From NCBI GenBank assembly GCA_947172415.1, contig OX359190.1, positions 62,001-126,000 on the forward strand: a stretch of DNA of 64,000 bases, written 5' to 3'. Positions 27,377 to 64,000 of this stretch are shown one piece after another. The translations under genes and the position numbers were made by a program. A model generated the notes under the pieces. It ran no database searches. It worked only from the letters and a program-made list of their open reading frames with translations, and was not told the DNA's origin. Source of the stretch: Chondrosia reniformis (taxonomy: Eukaryota; Porifera; Demospongiae; Chondrillida; Chondrillidae). Positions within the stretch are counted from its first letter, which is position 1; each line of letters starts with the position of its first letter.

Positions 27377-27449
27377 CTACTTCTGAATCACGTTTGGATG
27401 AAACACCAAACCTCAACCCTAAAATGGTAAAAGATTAATTGATGCTGAA

Positions 27450-29177
27450 AGGGGTGGGGCAGTACACAGAGGGGTGTGGCAGTACACAGAAGTGTGTGAC
27501 AGTTCACAGAGGGGTGGGGCAGTTCAGAGAGGGGTGGGGCAGTTCAGAGAGGGGTGGGGCAGTTCACAGAGGGGTGGGGCAGTACACAGAAGGGTGGGGC
27601 AGTTCAGAGAGGGGTGGGGCAGTACACAGAAGGGTGGGGCAGCTCACAGAGGGGTGGGGCAGTTCAGAGAGGGGTGGGGCAGTCCACAGAAGTGTGTGGC
27701 AGTTCAGAGAGGGATGCGGCAGTACACAGAGGGGTGGGGCAGTACACAGAAGGGTGTGGCAGTTCACAGAAGGGTGGGGCAGTTCACAGAAGGGTGTGGC
27801 AGTTCACAGAAGGGTGTGGCAGTACACAGAAGGGTGCGGCAGTACACAGAAGGGTGTGCAAGTTCATAGAAGGGTGGGGCAGTTCACAGAAGGGTGGGGC
27901 AGTTCACAGAAGGGTGGGGCAGTTCACAGAAGTGTGTGGCAGTACACAGAAGTGTGTGGCAGTTCACAGAGGGGTGGGGCAGTACACAGAGGGGTGGGGC
28001 AGTTCACAGAAGTGTGTGGCAGTTCACAGAAGTGTGTGGCAGTTCACAGAAGTGTGTGGCAGTACACAGAAGTGTGTGGCAGTTCACAGAGGGGTGGGGC
28101 AGTACACAGAGGGGTGGGGCAGTACACAGAGGGGTGGGGCAGTACACAGAAGTGTGTGACAGTTCACAGAGGGGTGGGGCAGTTCAGAGAGGGGTGGGGC
28201 AGTTCAGAGAGGGGTGGGGCAGTTCAGAGAGGGGTGGGGCAGTACACAGAGGGGTGGGGCAGTAGACAGAAGGGTGGGGCAGTACACAGAGGAGTGGGGC
28301 AGTTCACAGAGGGGTGGGGTAGTACACAGAAGTGTGTGACAGTTCACAGAGGGGTGGGGCAGTTCAGAGAGGGGTGGGGCAGTTCAGAGAGGGGTGGGGC
28401 AGTTCAGAGAGGGGTGGGGCAGTACACAGAGGGGTGGGGCAGTAGACAGAAGGGTGGGGCAGTACACAGAGGAGTGGGGCAGTTCACAGAGGGGTGGGGT
28501 AGTACACAGAGGGGTGGGGCAGTACACAGAAGTGTGTGGCAGTTCACAGAAGTGTGTGGCAGTTCACAGAGGGGTGGGGCAGTACACAGAGGGGTGGGGC
28601 AGTACACAGAGGGGTGTGGCAGTTCACAGAAGTGTGTGACAGTTCACAGAGGGGTGGGGCAGTACACAGAGGGGTGGGGCAGTACACAGAGGGGTGTGGC
28701 AGTTCACAGAAGTGTGTGACAGTTCACAGAGGGGTGGGGCAGTTCAGAGAGGGGTGGGGCAGTTCAGAGAGGGGTGTGGCAGTACACAGAGGGGTGGGGC
28801 AGTACACAGAGGGGTGGGGCAGTACACAGAAGTGTGTGGCAGTTCACAGAAGTGTGTGGCAGTTCACAGAGGGGTGGGGCAGTACACAGAGGGGTGGGGC
28901 AGTACACAGAGGGGTGTGGCAGTACACAGAAGTGTGTGACAGTTCACAGAGGGGTGGGGTAGTTCAGAGAGGGGTGGGGCAGTTCAGAGAGGGGTGGGGC
29001 AGTTCAGAGAGGGGTGGGGCAGTACACAGAGGGGTGGGGCAGTAGACAGAAGGGTGGGGCAGTACACAGAGGAGTGGGGCAGTTCACAGAGGGGTGGGGT
29101 AGTACACAGAGGGGTGGGGCAGTACACAGAGGGGTGGGGCAGTACACAGAGGAGTGGGGCAGTTCAGAGGGGTGTGA
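27450..29177 (+). repeat. Large 20-bp minisatellite array (about 86 units) with higher-order repeats
   Basis: Units alternate between GGGGTGGGGCAGTACACAGA and AGTGTGTGGCAGTTCACAGA types plus minor variants. A nine-unit (180-base) pattern at 28141-28320 is repeated exactly at 28321-28500 and nearly at 28921-29100. Frames stay open because the units lack stops in these phases; I do not treat the long open frames as genes. Confidence 0.9.
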
Positions 29178-40193: not shown

Positions 40194-40952
40194 TTCTCTT
40201 CTCCGCAAATAGTGATAAGCCGAATCTGCTTCTGAATCACGTTTGGATGAAATACTTGACTTTCGGCACCTTTGTACGTATGCGTAATTATATTCATATC
40301 GGCCGTATTTCATGACGTAAACGCGTGCGTAACTTCTTTATAATTAACTGAACCTTCAACATCAACACCTTATATATGTATTGTATGCCATGTGTACTTA
40401 TGCAGTTTTTCTCTTTAATGGATCTCTCAGTTGAAATGTTACAAAAAGAGCATTAAATCCTGATAATATATACCGGGTGCAATATAACCTCCTTCTAGCT
40501 ACGTTATATATCTTTGGAAAGATTACCCTTTCCAAAGATAAGTTTGACGAAGTTAGAAGAAATCCTTACTCAATTACGTTATATACATAATTTAGAGAAA
40601 AATAATTGAAAATTCTGTGACCGACTTTAAGTAGTGGAATAATCTTTACAACTCCAGCATGCAAATTTCACAAATAATTCTCCTAGAACCAGTTATAAGT
40701 TCCACCATGATGCAGCATTAGCTGGCTTCTTCAAAAAGGCATGTTTGCAATTAAATTTGAGAATTGAAATCAGTGATACATAAAAATATTATACAAACGT
40801 CTATAAAACTAGGAAATCAATGACTGGACCCTTCCTTCGGCAATCTGGCCCAGTTCCAGCGTCAGCTGAAACTCTAAACCGAATGGTAACCTTCTCTTTT
40901 ATAAAGTTCACTTCAACCCTAAAATGGTTAAAAAGATGAATTGATGCTGAAA
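40194..40952. other. Gap with one perfect hairpin
   Basis: 40509-40521 TATCTTTGGAAAG pairs perfectly with 40528-40540 across a six-base loop; weaker pairing extends outward (CTTCTAGCTACG versus GACGAAGTTAGAAG). No gene. The last 60 bases match the left flank of the 31.1-kb array. Confidence 0.5.
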
Positions 40953-41480
40953 GGGGTGGGGCAGTACACAGAGGGGTGGGGCAGTACACAGAGGGGTGGG
41001 NNNNNNNNNNNNNNNNNNNNNNNNNNNNNNNNNNNNNNNNNNNNNNNNNNNNNNNNNNNNNNNNNNNNNNNNNNNNNNNNNNNNNNNNNNNNNNNNNNNN
41101 NNNNNNNNNNNNNNNNNNNNNNNNNNNNNNNNNNNNNNNNNNNNNNNNNNNNNNNNNNNNNNNNNNNNNNNNNNNNNNNNNNNNNNNNNNNNNNNNNNNN
41201 GCAGTACACAGAAGGGTGGGGTAGTACACAAAGGGGTGGGGCAGTACACAGAGGGGTGGGGCAGTACACAGAGGGGTGGGGCAGTACACAGAAGGGTGGG
41301 GCAGTACACAGAGGGGTGGGGCAGTACACAGAGGGGTGGGGCAGTACACAGAGGGGTGGGGCAGTACACAGAGGGGTGAGGCAGTACACAGAGGGGTGGG
41401 GCAGTACACAGAAAGGTGGGGCAGTACACAGAGGGGTGGGGCAGTACACAGAGGGGTGGGGCAGTACACAGAAGTGTGAC
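40953..41480 (+). repeat. 20-bp minisatellite abutting the myosin stop codon
   Basis: Left boundary GATGCTGAAA as in other arrays. The last unit AGTGTGAC runs directly into the reverse complement of the myosin stop at 41481. It includes a 200-base gap. The myosin 3' UTR must lie in or beyond this array. Confidence 0.9.
41001..41200. other. Assembly gap (200 N)
   Basis: Exactly 200 undetermined bases inside the 20-bp array; the round size suggests a placeholder, so true array length is unknown. Confidence 0.95.
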
Positions 41481-44400
41481 TCACTGTTCACAGATATTGA
41501 CTTTTAAAGCCTTTCTAAAGGTCTCCTGAATGGTGGCATGGAGTTTTGTCACTAGCTCCACAACATTGGGAGTGTTCAGCACCAGATCACCTTTGTTCAC
41601 AACATTGGCTTTGGGCTGCATGGACACATCAAGGCACTGAAATACAGTAAATACTCATTTAAGTCAACTAACCTGGTTCACATGCAAGATGCAGTTGCCA
41701 TCTGAGTGGGAACTCAGTGAGACACACTCTAAGTCACCAAGACCTACTCGACTTTTGACAACAAAAGTCTTGGGATCCATGATGTAAAAGCATTTTGCAG
41801 TAACAACCATCAACTGAGGTACAGTCTGTGGATTCGAGAATCAAGATTTACTTATCCCGATTAACAGCATTTCAGCAATACCACACCTTGGCATCATTTC
41901 TGTTGACTTTTATGATGTTATCTGCCCACACTATTCGTGGTTCATTAAACTCAGCTGCCACCTTTGACCATCGCGCATCATTACGCAAGCTCAAGTGGTC
42001 ACCGTAAAATGGAACTGAAACACTGAATAAAGCAAGATAAATATTTTCATGCAAAACAATGATGAATAGACAGTTACAGAAACTCACGTCTTCTTATAAA
42101 GTTTCTTCTTTCCTGCAAACAGTGAACTTGCTCTGGCTTTCTCCATCATCCTGGCCTTCCTCCTGGGGTTGGTGCTGTAGTGGTCCCTCAGCTGCTGACA
42201 CTAGAGAAAAGGTGTCTGCATCAGGACCGCTCCAACAGTGACCGACACTGACTCACCCTCCACCTGTGATGGATGATCCTAAGAATCTTTGAGGTGTCCT
42301 TGAACTTGGCGGGCACCCGGGGCCACCTCTTGTCAATGGGAGATGGCGTGGGAAGATGGTCCCTTATGAACACCAAGAAGCGATAGTTCTGTACAAAGAA
42401 AATCCTCAATTGATGGAGTAGATGTTTAACACCTTATATGTATACTTACCAAGTAGGCTTTGAAGAGTCGTATGATCATTTCAGCAGCTGCCTTTTGATA
42501 GTTTAATGTCTTTCTCTTCAGGATTGCTCCATAGTGCTTGCGCACCTAACAAGAATACAGTGCAGTAGTGGCGTGGCCATATTGGAATACAGCCCATGCA
42601 GATACCTTGTAACCTCTCCAGTATCGTATGATCACTCCCACTGCCCCTGGACCTTTCACAGCACATTTCATCCTCCAAAGCTCTGTCCTTGCCTTATATG
42701 GAAAGACAGTATTTCAGTAATTGGGTAAAACCCCATTATTAGCAGCTGGACCCACCATCTTGCCCCTCCAGTGCTTTTGCAACACTATGGCTGCCTCCCG
42801 TACTTGAAGATAGTCTTTCCTCACTCTGTAGCCTTTCCAGTGCCTAGCTATGCAGACTTGGGCATTCCTTATTTGAAGATACTACCATAAAAGGTAATAG
42901 TAAATTCAAGTCCAAAAGAGTTAAATACAAATCAGTAAGTAAGCCCTTACTGGACTCTCCATTAAGTGTGTGTGGTCCCTAGTGGACTCTCCATAAAGTG
43001 GGCGTGGTCCCTAGTGGCCTCTCCATTAAGTGTGTGTGGTCCCTACTGGACTCTCCAATAAGTGGGCGTGGTCCCTAGTGGACTCTCCATGAAGTGGGCG
43101 TGGTCCCTAGTGGACTCTCTATTAAGTGGGCGTGGTCCCTAGTGGACTCTCCATTAGGTGGGCGTGGTCCCTAGTGGACTCTCCATTAAGTGGGCGTGGT
43201 CCCTAGTGGACTCTCCATTAAGTGGGCGTGGTCCCTAGTGGACTCTCCATTAAGTGGGCGTGGTCCCTAGTGGACTCTCCATTAAGTGGGCGTGGTCCCT
43301 AGTGGACTCTCCATTAGGTGGGCGGGGTCCCTAGTGGACTCTCCATTAGGTGGGCGTGGTCCCTAGTGGACTCTCCATTAAGTGGGCGTGGTCCCTAGTG
43401 GACTCTCCATTAAGTGGGCGTGGTCCCTAGTGGACTCTCCATTAAGTGGGCGTGGTCCCTAGTGGACTCTCCATTAAGTGGGCGTGGTCCCTAGTGGACT
43501 CTCCATTAGGTGGGCGTGGTCCCTAGTGGACTCTCCATTAAGTGGGCATGGTCCCTAGTGGACTCTCCATAAAGTGGGCGTGGTCCCTAGTGGACTCTCC
43601 ATTAAGTGGGCGTGGTCCCTAGTGGACTCTCCATTAAGTGGGCGTGGTCCCTAGTGGACTCTCCATTAAGTGGGCGTGGTCCCTAGTGGACTCTCCATTA
43701 AGTGGGCGTGGTCCCTAGTGGACTCTCCATTAAGTGGGCGTGGTCCCTAGTGGACTCTCCATTAGGTGGGCGTGGTCCCTAGTGGACTCTCCATTAAGTG
43801 GGCATGGTCCCTAGTGGACTCTCCATAAAGTGGGCGTGGTCCCTAGTGGACTCTCCATTAAGTGGGCGTGGTCCCTAGTGGACTCTCCATTAAGTGGGCG
43901 TGGTCCCTAGTGGACTCTCCATTAAGTGGGCGTGGTCCCTAGTGGACTCTCCATTAAGTGGGCGTGGTCCCTAGTGGACTCTCCATTAAGTGGGCGTGGT
44001 CCCTAGTGGACTCTCCATTAGGTGGGTGTGGTCCCTAATGGACAGTAGAGCAGTACCTTTTTCCTTTGAATGTATCCTCTGAATATCTTTTGGATGATTG
44101 TGGCAATGATGTGCAAGAGGCGTTTGCGTTTGTCTTCAAGTAAAAACACAGTCTTTGGATCACGAATGAAGATCTTTGTTCTTCCAAACTCGCATTCTTC
44201 CACCTTCCTACAAGCCTAGTGAAAGAATTGGATCAATTATCTATACACTTTAGTAGTGTAATGAGGGTGAGTACCTGTAATATTTTTCTGGTCCCACCCC
44301 TTGCAGAAGCTTTCCACACTGGCCATGTGTCTTTACTGAGCATTTTATACCTCACCAGAAACTCTTCGTAAAACTGCTTGAAGGCAAACCCAGCTCTTCT

Positions 44401-56685: not shown

Positions 56686-59600
56686 ATGCTGTTCCTCCAC
56701 TTGGCGCTCCTCGGGTCGCTACTGACCGCCAAGGGGCAAGACTTTATGATTTCTAGAGGAGACATTCCCAGCTCCTTCAGTGTCAGCGACAGATATCCGG
56801 ATCGCAGCGAAGATGAGGAGTGTCGACCGATTCAACAGCGCTTCAGTCGAACATCTTTACGTTACCAGAGGGATCTGGTCAGCAATTTTAATTTTGATAT
56901 TGAGTTTGTGGACGACGATGCGCGTCGCATGACCTCGCGACTGCAGATTGCCGTAGATACGCTAGCAGCTAGCTACCGCAACCAATACAGCAATAAACTG
57001 AAGGTGCTTCTGGCATGGGCCGACTTTGAGATCACCAGTCTCTTTGAGGAACTGGGAAACACGTCACTTCATTACGAAGGTAACAAATCTGTAACTTTTT
57101 GTGTGTAAGTTTGTAACTCTATCGACTCGCATGCATTCCTTTACACTAGTCAAAGAGCGTTGTATAGCAGCGCGCGAGGGAACGGAGACATGTCAATGCC
57201 TTGCGCGAATGACTGTCTATATCTAAATACAGTGTGCGAATGCCTTTACCAAATAATTTGTTTTATTTGTGTTACATTCCAAAGTAGCAGTTGTATAGCT
57301 TCGCACTGTGACTGTGTTTGTTTAATGTGTGTGGTATGCGTGTCCCGTGCAGGTCGGTCGGTGCGTGTTCAAGGTTATGGAGTCGAGAGTATGTCGTTAC
57401 TGGAACGACTGGAGCACCACTCGCAGCTGCTGATCTTGGCCTTACAAGCCGGTTTCACTTGGGTCTCCTTTGAAGCGGAATTTTACGTCAAACTCAGCGT
57501 GGTACCAGATCGTGAGTGAACGTGTTTGTGAGCATGGTAAGTTGATTTGACCGTTTCTGTTTCCACTTCCAGTTTGCAACATCAACACAGATTTGGTGTG
57601 GTTATTGGACCAGTCTGGTAGTGTGGGCAGTGCTAATCACGATCTAGCTCTGCAGTTTATAGAAAATGTTGTCAACAGATTTGACATTGCCCCAAACAAC
57701 ACGCGTGTTGCAATGATCTCGTACTCTACTGAGGCAAGACTCGAGTTTGACTTTACTGCCGCCCCTTATCTGAGGGACGTCAGAAACAAGATTGACAACA
57801 TTCCCTTTAGGGGAGGCTGGACTGCCACCACACTAGCTCTGAACGGGGCACGCTACATTTTGAATGAGGCAAATGGATTTGGAGTACGACCACAATCAAA
57901 TGGTACAGGAATACACGTTTCCATGGTAACCCACTGTCATGTACCCCTTGTTTTGTGCAGGAGTGCCTCGTGTTGTAGTTCTGATAACAGACGGTCGCTC
58001 CAACCTGTATGCTCTGGGAGATCACCCGGAGAGGCTGAGGGAGGAGGGAGCCATTGTGTACACTGTCGGAGTGGGGAACATTTATCTGAACGAGCTGCTG
58101 TACATTGCCTCTGACCCTGATGTAGACCACGTGTTTCTGTTGCGTAGCTACAGAGACGCCGACACCTTTGTAGACTTTCTGGGAGCCTCTCTTTGTGAAA
58201 GTAAGAAAGAGCCTTCTGTAGTGTGTGCTGCTCTTAGACTTTGTGTGCTGTAGGTCCAGCAATAGTGATAACGGGTGGTTTTGTTGTGACTACCATTCTG
58301 AGAGAAGAGTTGAGATATTTTCAATCAGTTTGCGGTAGATTTACAGTCAATTCAACCATCATTGTTGAAGTTGTGAGTGATTGTGCAATTTTTTGCAGTA
58401 TCTACATTTTACATGTGCAATTCCTGTTTCCATTTCAGATTGATACAATTGGTTTCAGTTTTGTGTACGTGTCAACAAGAATCCGCAACCCTGGTCCAGT
58501 TAGCCCACGCCCCTACATCGTAGCGAATGAGAATGCAGCTTTTAAGCGTCAAAGAAGACTGATTCGTATCAGCTTTACATTTGAGCAACACACGGTTAGC
58601 AATATCCACCACCACCACTCCATCCTCGCCCCGCCCCCTCCATCTTGACCCAATCCCTCCATCTTGACCCCACCCCCTCCATCTTGACCCAATCCCTCCA
58701 TCTTGACCCCACCCCCTTCATCTTGACCCCACCCCCTCCATCTTGACTCAATCCCTCCATCTTGACCCCACCCCCTTCATCTTGACCCCACCCCCTCCAT
58801 CTTGACCCAATCCCTCCATCTTGACCCCAACCCCTCCATCTTGACCCCAACCCCTCCATCTTGACCCCGCCCCTCCATCTTGACCCCACCCCTTCCATCT
58901 TGACCCCACCCCCTCCCCTTGTATGTATGTAGACTGTGTATGTGACTATGGAGGGACAAGAAGATACAAATGAATTTTCAATGAGGATTTGGGAAGATCT
59001 CTTCAAAGTAGACGAGATTCCTTATACCATATTAGGTGGCACTCAACCAGCCAACCCTATTGTAGTGGTCAGCGACTACCTTCTGGATACTGTCACTGGA
59101 AGGTGAGCCCTGCTTGACCGACTATAAGGAGCTTGCTGTAGATATATATTTAAATATTACTATTCATATATATGTATGTACATTGAATAAGTCATTCTAT
59201 ACTGAATATTATGTCACACTAGTATATGCAAATGAGACTTGTTGTCTAATTTCTGCAGCTTTAAGTACACACTGACTGAAGGCAATGAGGCAGGTCGTTT
59301 CTCCATTGACTCAGGATCAGGGGCTGTGTCTGTGAATGCTCCACTGAACCCTTCAGATGCACTAGAGTACAATCTCACTGTGGTCGCAGAGAGCACAGAG
59401 GATGAGTGCCAGAGGTCGAGGGTATACGTGATAGTCCAAGTGACCCCGCCCAACACTGCCCCACCCACCTTCACGCCCCTCACTCCCGTCAGTGTACTAG
59501 AGAATGCCCCAAATGGCCAGTTAGTTGTCACCGTAGCAGCTACTGATAGCGACATTGGCAGAAGTGGTGAGGTCAGATACTCCATTGTCGGTGGCGATAT

Positions 59601-62600
59601 GGCCAATGTCTTCTCCATTGATGAAGTGTCTGGAGAAGTACGAGTGTCGGACAACACCAACCTGAACCGATCAGTCAGTATGATAGTGCAGTACAACTTA
59701 GGTATCCAAGCAACAGATTTGGGGGAAACTCCCCGTAGCTCCATGGCAACACAAGTAATTAATGTCGATGACGTGAATGAAGCTCCTTTCTTTATAGTCG
59801 CATGTGCACTAGACAACTCGTGCGAGTCAGAGTTGAGCGAGGGGTCTCCCTCAAACACTCCCATCAGGGTTCTGACTGCGGATGATGTTGACATTGGTAC
59901 CAATGGAATAATCTCCTACTCACTCGTGTCCACTAATCCAATGGAGCTCCTCACTCAGTTTGGTGTCGACAGCGGAAGTGGACAACTGAGACTCACCGGA
60001 GAAGTAGACTTTGAGACTGTGCAGGTCATCATTGTTACCGTGGCAGCCAGCGATGGGGGAAATCCCTCCCTTTCTGTCAGCACAGAAGTAACAGTAACAG
60101 TGACAGATGTTAACGACAACAATCCGACCATCATTGCTGACTCTCCCATCAGTGTCTCTGAGCTGGCGGAGGTGGGGTCTACCGTTACCGTGGTAGCAGC
60201 CTCAGACCCTGACCAGGGAATGGGGGGAAGGGTGACCTTTAGCTTTTCATCTCCATCCACAGTTTTTGGTCTCAATGGCGATAACATTGTCCTTTTGACT
60301 GAACTGGACTATGAGACGGTGGATCAGTACACTATCACATTGGTTGCCACGGACGGGGGAGGGCTAACGAGCTCAAAGGATATTGTGTTCAATGTCCTCA
60401 ATGAAAACGACAACAGCCCCATCTTTGACCCGACCTCTGTTGCTTATAGCATAGTGGAAAATGGAAACCCCCCAGAGACCTTGGGAGTTGTCATGGCAAC
60501 AGATGCTGATAGGGGTAGCTTTGGTGTGGTTCGTTACCGCATCCAAGCTCAATCAGATCCACCTCCGTTTGCTGTCAATGCTACCTCCGGAGAAGTAACC
60601 ACTACAAGCAGTCTGGACAGAGAAGCCATGGCGAGCCACCAGTTTGTCATTGAAGCCTACGATGGGGGAATCCCTGCCATGATTGGATTACTGACAGTCA
60701 CAGTGACAGTTACTGATGACAATGACTGGTCTCCAGAGTTTGTGGATGACTATGTAAAGTGTGTTCGTGAGGATGCAGCCCCTCAGGAACTTTTGGTAGT
60801 CATGGCAACAGACAGAGATGAGGCAGGCACTCCTAATTCTGAGGTGGAGTATTTCATAAGTTCTGGAAATGACGACAGTTTGTTCAGTCTGAACAGGACA
60901 TCCGGGAGCTTCAGGCTGGAAGGAGAACTCGACTACGAGACTGCCACTGGGCACAACGTTACAGTGGAGGCTCGCGACATGGGACAAGATCCTTTGTCCG
61001 GCTTTACTGTTGTTCAGATTTGTGTGACTGATGTACCAGACAACGCTCCAAACCTCACGTCTAACAGAACGGTAAATGTGTCAGAGAGTACTGCCATCAA
61101 TACTGTCATAACGACTTTCATTCCCAGTGGAGTGGACACCTCGTCCCAGTTGATGTACAGCATATCACTAGGCAACGAGGAGGGACTGTTTGACATCAGC
61201 GACACTGGAGATGTGACGCTGGTCGCCATGTTGGACTACGAGAATGAAATCAGATATGACTTGAGAATTACAGTTGAAGACAATATGATGCAAAGCTCTT
61301 CCGTGTTCCTTTTTGTTAATGTTGTTAATGAAAATGATGAAACTCCAAAACTGACTGCTCCCTCCACAGTCTCTATTGAAGAAGAAGGCGCTGTCAACTC
61401 TTTAGTGTTTCAAGTTAATGCCACTGACGATGATATTGGAGTGTTTGGACTAATATCATATTCTCTAATTGTGGCAGCTTTACCTGGCGGAGGACTGCCG
61501 TTTAAGATTGATTCCAATGGTACAGTTACCATAGCAACAAGAATTGACCGTGATGTTCTCCCAGTAAATGGCAGAACTCTTCAAGTAGAGGTGATTGCAA
61601 GAGATGGGGGTAATCCCTCACTGATGGATAGGGCCGTTGTGCCGGTGGAAATCCTTGACATTAACGACAATATGCCCGAGTTTTCAGCTTCCGAGTACAC
61701 CAGTCCAATTGCAGAGGGCAACGCTAACAGAACCCTTTTGACAGTGACTGCCAGCGACAGAGACGATGGAACAAATGCAGAGATTACATTCAGTCTGTCA
61801 GTTACAGATCCAGTCCCATTCCAAATTGACAGTGTCTCGGGTGTCATTTCCACAACTGGAGAACTGGACAGAGAGACTCGGGACGAGTATGAACTGACTG
61901 TAGTAGCTGCAGATAATGCAGTGGAGAATCCGATGAGTTCCACAGCTATTGTGACAGTCGCTGTTACTGATATCAATGACAATGTACCTCAACTTGGAGG
62001 AAACCTCTTTAATGTCAGCATTATAGAGAATGTGCCTCCGACAGAGCAGGTCATTCAACTCAGTGCCATGGATGATGATTTAGGTTGGTTGTCATAGCAA
62101 CCCTATTTGAACTAGAGTGAACAAGTGTTAGTCGTTTTTTATTTTTGTTTGTTTTTAGGTGCAAACGGAATGGTGTCCTTTAGGATCGAGAGTGGTAACC
62201 GTGGAGAACCTTTTGAAATCAACAATCAAACTGGTGAAGTAACTAGAGTAAAGGCGCTGGACTTTGAAGATATCTCCTCTTACCAGATCACAATAGTAGC
62301 CTTTGATGGGGGAAATCCCCCACTCTCCTCTGTAGCTACTTTAAGAGTTGCTGTTATTAATATTGACGAGTCTCCTCCGAGATTTCAGCTGCCATGCGAA
62401 GTCACTCTGGACGAGGTGGATGTGACTCCTCCGGACCTCCTGCGACTCCTCAGCTGCATTGCTATAGACTATGACGATGACAGACCAACAGGTTTTCCAG
62501 TAAGTGACGCAAGTGGAGTGTTTGACCTGTTGTTAGAATACTCATTTTTGTTTGTTTGAAGGTGACGTACAACTTGGTGTCAGTAAACGGCTTTACTAGT

Positions 62601-64000
62601 GAACTGGACCACCCTTTTCAGTACGAGCAGTCCACGGGAGAACTGATTGCTAGAGATGACTTGGACTTTGAGGCAGATGTGGAGTGGAGAGTGAGAGTAT
62701 CTGCAGCAGACCCTACTGGCAACACTGCAGAAGCCGAAATACTTGTAACGCTGAGAGACATCAACGATAATGCACCAATCTTTATTGATGGACCCTATGA
62801 TGCCATATACACAAACCTGCAAACGTCACGGATATACATCTTTAATAGCGAGGACCTAGACCGTGGAATAAATGGCTTATACGATATGGAGATTGTAGGA
62901 GCTGAGAGAAGTGGCGATTCTGTTGTTGTGACTATTAATGCAACAGACTTTGGTAATCCATCACTGACTGGTTCAACTACAGTTACAGTGGATATCTCTC
63001 AGTTGCTTCCATGTTCCTTGGTCGACTTTACACTAGAGTACACACGAGGAGGGGATGAGTCTACACTCTTTGCCAGTGCTCTCTGTGACTTCTCCCAGGC
63101 TCCCCAAGATGTCTCTATAGTGTTGGGAGGAAGTCACACATTCCAGTGTGCCGCCAGGGGAAGTGCAGACCTCACCATTACCTATCGATGGCTGCACAAT
63201 GGCTCCTTCATCACTGAGAGCTCTGCAAATGGATCACTGACGCTCACAAACATTCAGTTCTCAGACGCTGGTTCGTATGCTTGTCGTGCAACTAATGCTC
63301 TGGGGACAATCCAGGCTTCACCCCCGGCTTTTGTGGGAGTGCTGGGTAGGTTAGATCATGTGACCTTCATGTGATCCTCATGTGATCAGTCATCACTTGT
63401 TTCCTTTCATGCAGTTGCTCCAACTATTCTTGTCTCTCCCGGAGATGTGTCCACAGAACGAGAAACCATGGCAACCTTTACCTGTGTAGTATCTGGTCAA
63501 CCCGCCCCCACCATCAGATGGGTGGTTACCCGGGAGACACTCTCTGAAGATGTTGTGTCAGACGAAAGGATATTTGTACAGGAAGGGACTCTGATCATCA
63601 CAGATGTTAGGCCGTCCGATCAGGGAGACTACAGCTGTGTGGCAAGCAATGCAGCTGGTTCAGCTCGGTCAACCGGGGGACGCCTCATAATATTTGGTGA
63701 GTGAACATGACACACCCAACTCACCTGACACACCCAACTCACCTGACACTGTATTCTCCTACAGGCAGTTCTCAAATTGCTCAGCTGACTATTGAGGAGA
63801 TCCGCTCACCAGATGCACAATCCTCCTGTCAGGAGTTCAATGTCCAAGACTTTGCTGATGCTCTCACAGAAGCTACTGAATCAAGTCTTCAGATGTACGT
63901 GACAGATACCTCGGGAGAGAACTTGTGTCTGCCGAGTGCCTGCTCCCCCAATCCTTGTCAAAATGGAGGTGAATGTGGGGAGGTGTCGGACAATGCTGAT
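56686..64000 (+). CDS. hedgling: Hedgling: Hedge domain + VWA + cadherin repeats + Ig + EGF (3' end beyond window)
   Basis: Large surface protein of early animals carrying the Hedgehog signalling domain without a Hint domain. Twelve exons join in phase (56686-57079, 57353-57511, 57573-57902, 57961-58200, 58254-58372, 58439-58594, 58933-59102, 59259-62083, 62159-62499, 62562-63345, 63415-63696, 63765-open), 2,012 codons. The ATG starts a signal peptide MLFLHLALLGSLLTAKG. Residues about 35-184: Hedge domain (FSRTSLRYQRDLVSNFNFDI, TSLHYEGRSVRVQ, LALQAGFTWVSFEAEFYV). About 185-374: VWA with MIDAS motif DQSGS at 197-201 and VVVLITDGRSN. About 375-520: linker. About 520-1,740: some 11-13 cadherin repeats with DINDN/DVNDN, LDYE and DRD motifs. 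Then two Ig domains (FQCAARG...YACRATNALG; FTCVVSGQ...YSCVASNAAG) and the start of an EGF domain (CSPNPCQNGGEC). No CGPG palmitoylation site. No frame damage seen. Confidence 0.92.
58620..58918. repeat. Minisatellite in hedgling intron 6 (19/38-bp units)
   Basis: CATCTTGACCCCACCCCCT alternating with CATCTTGACCCAATCCCTC. Pyrimidine-rich on the coding strand and ends about 13 bases before the exon 7 acceptor at 58932. Confidence 0.95.

Follow-up and report, generated by a model that had tools for sequence, protein, structure and literature searches.

Analysis of a 64,000-nucleotide stretch of the Chondrosia reniformis genome (C2:62001-126000, hereafter the window) showed that it holds the start of a demosponge Hedgling gene whose Hedge domain has replaced two of the three zinc ligands of Hedgehog. 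The protein is very probably a single-pass surface Hedgling that carries the Hedge domain as a zinc-free binding module, the zinc site having been lost on the Hedgling line. The name Hedgling was reportedly given by Adamska et al. 2007. The Chondrosia reniformis assembly comprised 117,379,552 bases in 15 contigs at chromosome scale.

The zinc ligands of SHH are H141, D148, and H183 in mouse numbering (PMC8052667), the human numbers being one lower. The Hedge domain was aligned using phmmer against the PDB and using MAFFT together with SHH and 15 bacterial proteins. In the phmmer match to SHH (E = 4.4e-9), SLHYEGRSVRV was placed opposite SLHYEGRAVDI, and FYVKLSV opposite the HIHCSV region, and MAFFT yielded the same ligand columns. 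The three columns contained His129 (codon 57070..57072), Arg136 (CGT, 57364..57366), and Lys178 (AAA, 57490..57492), respectively, all on the + strand like every other feature of the gene. The initial annotation of this DNA had proposed that LHYEG was kept, that Asp had become Arg in GRSVRV, and that FYVKLSV lacked a His, and mapping of the ligands on SHH confirmed all three. The Chondrosia motif was H-X6-R and Y-X-K, against H-X6-D and H-X-H in M15A-like Hh/DD-peptidases, and the set of three ligands was incomplete.

Four further residues, E127, H135, E177, and H181, belong to the active site (PMC4102407). Their columns in MAFFT contained Leu, Thr, Glu172, and Tyr, respectively, leaving 2 of the 7 active-site residues in the Chondrosia Hedge domain. 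Glu172 (codon 57472..57474) occupied the place of the putative catalytic Glu. The H135 column adjoined an insertion, and that stretch contained no His. The Hedge domain contained three histidines, of which His153 and His154 were in an insertion preceding a helix; only His129 aligned with a ligand, which ruled out a realignment that would rescue another one. Neither replacement is explained by one base error, because Asp to Arg (CGT) and His to Lys (AAA) each require at least two base changes.

The Hedgehog calcium site consists of mouse E90, E91, D96, E127, D130, and D132, of which E127, D130, and D132 were mutated in PMC8052667. The last three columns contained Leu, Ala, and Phe (MAFFT), none of them acidic. 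E90, E91, and D96 fell in a shortened loop where the alignments disagreed, MAFFT giving gaps and HMMER giving Asp-Asp and Ala. The bacterial proteins were a weak control here: all 15 had D96 and an acid in the E127 column, whereas D130 was present in 1 of the 15. The Hedgehog-type calcium site was probably lost, judging from these columns.

The domain order of the whole protein identified the gene as a Hedgling, in agreement with the initial annotation. Pfam HH_signal matched residues 47-180 (E = 6.1e-17) and reached position 161 of the 161 profile positions, and the predicted model showed the three-dimensional SHH-type fold, which supported the earlier assignment of a Hedge fold. VWA followed directly (residues 191-364, E = 5.6e-35), then 10 cadherin stretches (E 6.6e-160), two Ig stretches, and one EGF stretch. 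A single strong hydrophobic run was found at residues ~2288-2332 (Kyte-Doolittle windows starting at 2288-2314, top mean 3.41), followed by a C-terminal tail of ~100 residues. No Hint/Hog domain and no SH2 domain was matched in the protein at E <= 0.001. An N-terminal Hedge domain followed by VWA, cadherin repeats, and a transmembrane segment, with Hog/Hint absent, marks a Hedgling, the position of Hedge directly before VWA being a Hedgling feature (PMC4054682); the fusion of Hedge to a Hog autoprocessing domain, which marks a Hedgehog ligand, was absent. The VWA domain of this protein contained DQSGS and TDG, motifs of the MIDAS (metal ion-dependent adhesion site) type; in the cadherin repeats, a loose pattern picked out 8 DxNDx-like, 8 LDxE-like, and 10 AxDx-like motifs. 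With these metal motifs present, general decay of the protein does not account for the missing ligands, and the loss is confined to the Hedge domain.

The exon model was built by inspection of splice sites (GT/AG) and reading frame in genomic DNA, and the gene was followed past the end of the window. It contained 18 exons from 56686 to 65621 in window coordinates, the 3' end being C2:127621, and encoded 2437 residues. All 2437 codons were open after splicing, which ruled out a broken gene and bore out the earlier view that it is well preserved. Exon 1 (56686..57079) encoded a hydrophobic N-terminus, which by eye looks like a putative signal peptide, and the Hedge domain through LHYEG. Its last base splits the Gly codon of LHYEG, and exon 2 (57353..57511) opens with GRSVRV and encodes the remaining Hedge domain (GRSVRV ... 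FEAEFYVKLSVVPD), the two exons together encoding 184 residues. Intron 1 (57080..57352, 273 nt, one in-frame stop) separates the kept His from the lost Asp ligand, and its junction (57079/57353) had GT/AG at both sites. Exons 3 and 4 (57573..58200) encoded VWA, with DQSGS at residue 197 and TDG at 304. Exons 5-7 (58254..59102) encoded a linker with no Pfam match at E <= 0.001, exons 8-10 (59259..63345) the 10 cadherin stretches and the first Ig domain, and exon 11 (63415..63696) the second Ig domain. The first part of exon 12 (63765..64000) encoded the EGF region, the exon running on to 64066. The extension beyond the window located the transmembrane helix in exon 16. Introns ranged in length from 34 to 338 nt; the shortest, which separates exons 12 and 13, is the least certain.

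Several repeats and motifs were observed in and around the gene. A C-rich minisatellite at 58614-58916 (20-nt unit, ~15 copies) occupied most of intron 6. Exon 15 (C2:126543-126787) contained SVGRRRRQ, a furin-site-like run between the EGF region and the transmembrane helix. A repeat field (L002:3152-9985) began ~0.5 kb 3' of the gene, past the window end, with a spacing of ~169 nt and 22 in-register copies of a 300-nt reference, and similar short open reading frames (ORFs) continued to appear in L003. Elsewhere in the window, 27439-28719 and 40801-41507 were long open frames of simple tandem repeats (GVGQYTEGWGSS type), the second including a run of N, and both look like repeats rather than genes.

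Chondrosia was compared with other Hedglings through published descriptions rather than residue by residue at the ligands. In Nematostella Nv 200640, two exons encode Hedge and exons 3 and 4 encode VWA, with cadherins, two Ig and two EGF domains, and a transmembrane segment following (PMC2362128). The order Hedge, VWA, cadherins, two Ig, EGF, and transmembrane without Hog was common to Chondrosia and the Hedglings described from Nematostella, Amphimedon, and choanoflagellates, and Chondrosia shared with Nematostella the exon layout of Hedge and VWA. Nematostella differed in having 21 cadherin repeats, against the 10 Pfam cadherin stretches of Chondrosia, and an SH2 domain. Because PMC2362128 gives two exons for Nematostella, the Hedge-domain intron is not novel; the single-exon Hh domain stated for Hedgling (PMC8052667) does not apply to Chondrosia, where this domain spans exons 1 and 2. 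SHH, IHH, and DHH shared with Chondrosia the Hedge fold, the LHYEGR motif, and Glu at the E177 place, while Chondrosia differed in the two zinc ligands, in calcium positions E127, D130, and D132, in lacking Hog, and in its membrane anchor. Drosophila Hedgehog has the same two zinc ligands replaced, by Thr and Tyr (PMC6027127, PMC4102407), but it has also lost E177 (Val) and is a Hog-processed ligand, whereas Chondrosia keeps Glu172 and has no Hog.

The initial annotation had presented the loss as new and the zinc-free state as ancestral, and neither proposal was supported. Hedglings and Hedglets are already described as having lost catalytically important residues, and bacterial Hedgehog-like proteins (BacHh) and animal Hh, unlike them, as keeping the catalysis and calcium residues (PMC8052667); the Chondrosia gene is a further example of this zinc-motif loss. 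No earlier report of a Chondrosia reniformis Hedgling was found in the part of the published Hedgling literature covered. Concerning ancestry, bacterial and archaeal genomes were scanned with a stretch of SHH using six search patterns, none of which included the zinc ligands, although one (GFDWVYYE) covers the E177 place. There were 46 pattern matches, 15 of them encoding a relative with a homologous domain (L004-L018); in IMG/VR viral contigs there were 6 pattern matches, and none encoded a relative. The His-Asp-His triad was kept in 15 of the 15 bacterial relatives (MAFFT), a set that leans to zinc-bearing forms. Because these relatives and vertebrate Hedgehog keep the triad, the Chondrosia state is more simply read as a loss. 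A history in which Hedglings were zinc-free from the start, with zinc-bearing Hedgehog derived separately from bacteria, is improbable. A separate bacterial origin of Hedgehog is argued in PMC6027127 and PMC8052667, and the bacterial relative L004 was 54% identical to SHH; but LHYEG, E177, and the fold are common to Hedgling and Hedgehog, and M15-type zinc peptidases have the same fold, so the Hedge domain itself is more simply explained by an ancestor that bound zinc and a later loss.

Two further explanations were considered. A zinc site of different make-up, in which His129 and Glu172, aided by His153, His154, or another acid, bind the metal, is very unlikely: both residues are retained and the domain has two additional histidines, yet His153 and His154 are in the alignment away from the ligand strands, and Arg and Lys in the two ligand columns would disfavour cation binding. 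It is more doubtful still that the splice model is wrong and that the true transcript uses another exon bearing the Asp and His ligands. Intron 1 does fall between the His and Asp places in a model made from genomic DNA, but the join of exons 1 and 2 gives LHYEGRSVRV ungapped against LHYEGRAVDI, and a single HH_signal match was detected when the best candidates of the whole assembly were scored, with no sign of a second such exon.

For the favoured zinc-free binding module, the Hedge domain would stand at the outer end of the protein, followed by VWA, cadherins, Ig, EGF, the transmembrane helix, and the short tail. It would be unable to hold a catalytic zinc in the manner of Hedgehog and would not be a peptidase, but may act as a binding module beside a VWA domain that has its metal motif. 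From the domain content, the protein may function in calcium-dependent adhesion or contact signalling, and such a role fits because Nematostella Hedgling has been grouped with the Fat and Flamingo cadherins and Wnt/planar cell polarity components (PMC12549020). On the available evidence, the Hedgling line would once have had the zinc site and lost it. Tentatively, and with rather low confidence, Arg136 and Lys178 might supply a fixed positive charge that replaces zinc and pairs with Glu172, so that the shape of the pocket is kept as a binding surface. Several points weigh against the zinc-free binding module. The evidence comes from genomic DNA only, of one species and one sponge sequence, and retention of Glu172 makes it somewhat less certain that the pocket is inactive. 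The structure model was made from a reading that retained intron 1 and from an alignment of bacterial Hedgehogs and is thus partly dependent on the sequence alignment, and its His129 stretch had a predicted local distance difference test (pLDDT) score < 50. Choosing the bacterial relatives for similarity to SHH biases the set towards Hedgehog-like sites, and the suggested adhesion role draws on domain content.

The assembly was searched with profiles exon by exon, and as only the best candidates were scored, a divergent second gene could escape. A single HH_signal match and a single Hint match (143 bits, contig C7) were detected, which places the Hedge gene and the Hog-type (Hint) gene found in this assembly on separate contigs. 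Upstream of the Hint match (L019, G000:C7:4761008-4761583) was an ORF encoding an AIG1/GIMAP-type GTPase domain (1.5e-33). There were 3 Patched-type and 5 Frizzled-type matches. Four of the five single-frame Frizzled-type matches (L023-L027) were on contig C10 within ~100 kb; KTxxxW was present in L023 and L026 and absent from L025 and L027, the four of the five that were read.

The Chondrosia Hedgling does not settle the origin of Hedgehog. It adds a full-length demosponge Hedgling to the published pattern of a Hedge fold with no functional zinc motif, together with the two exact ligand replacements and the presence of the transmembrane end. If sponge Hedglings share the charge swap, the Hedge fold would have exchanged a metal for side chains, by a route other than the Thr/Tyr/Val changes of Drosophila.
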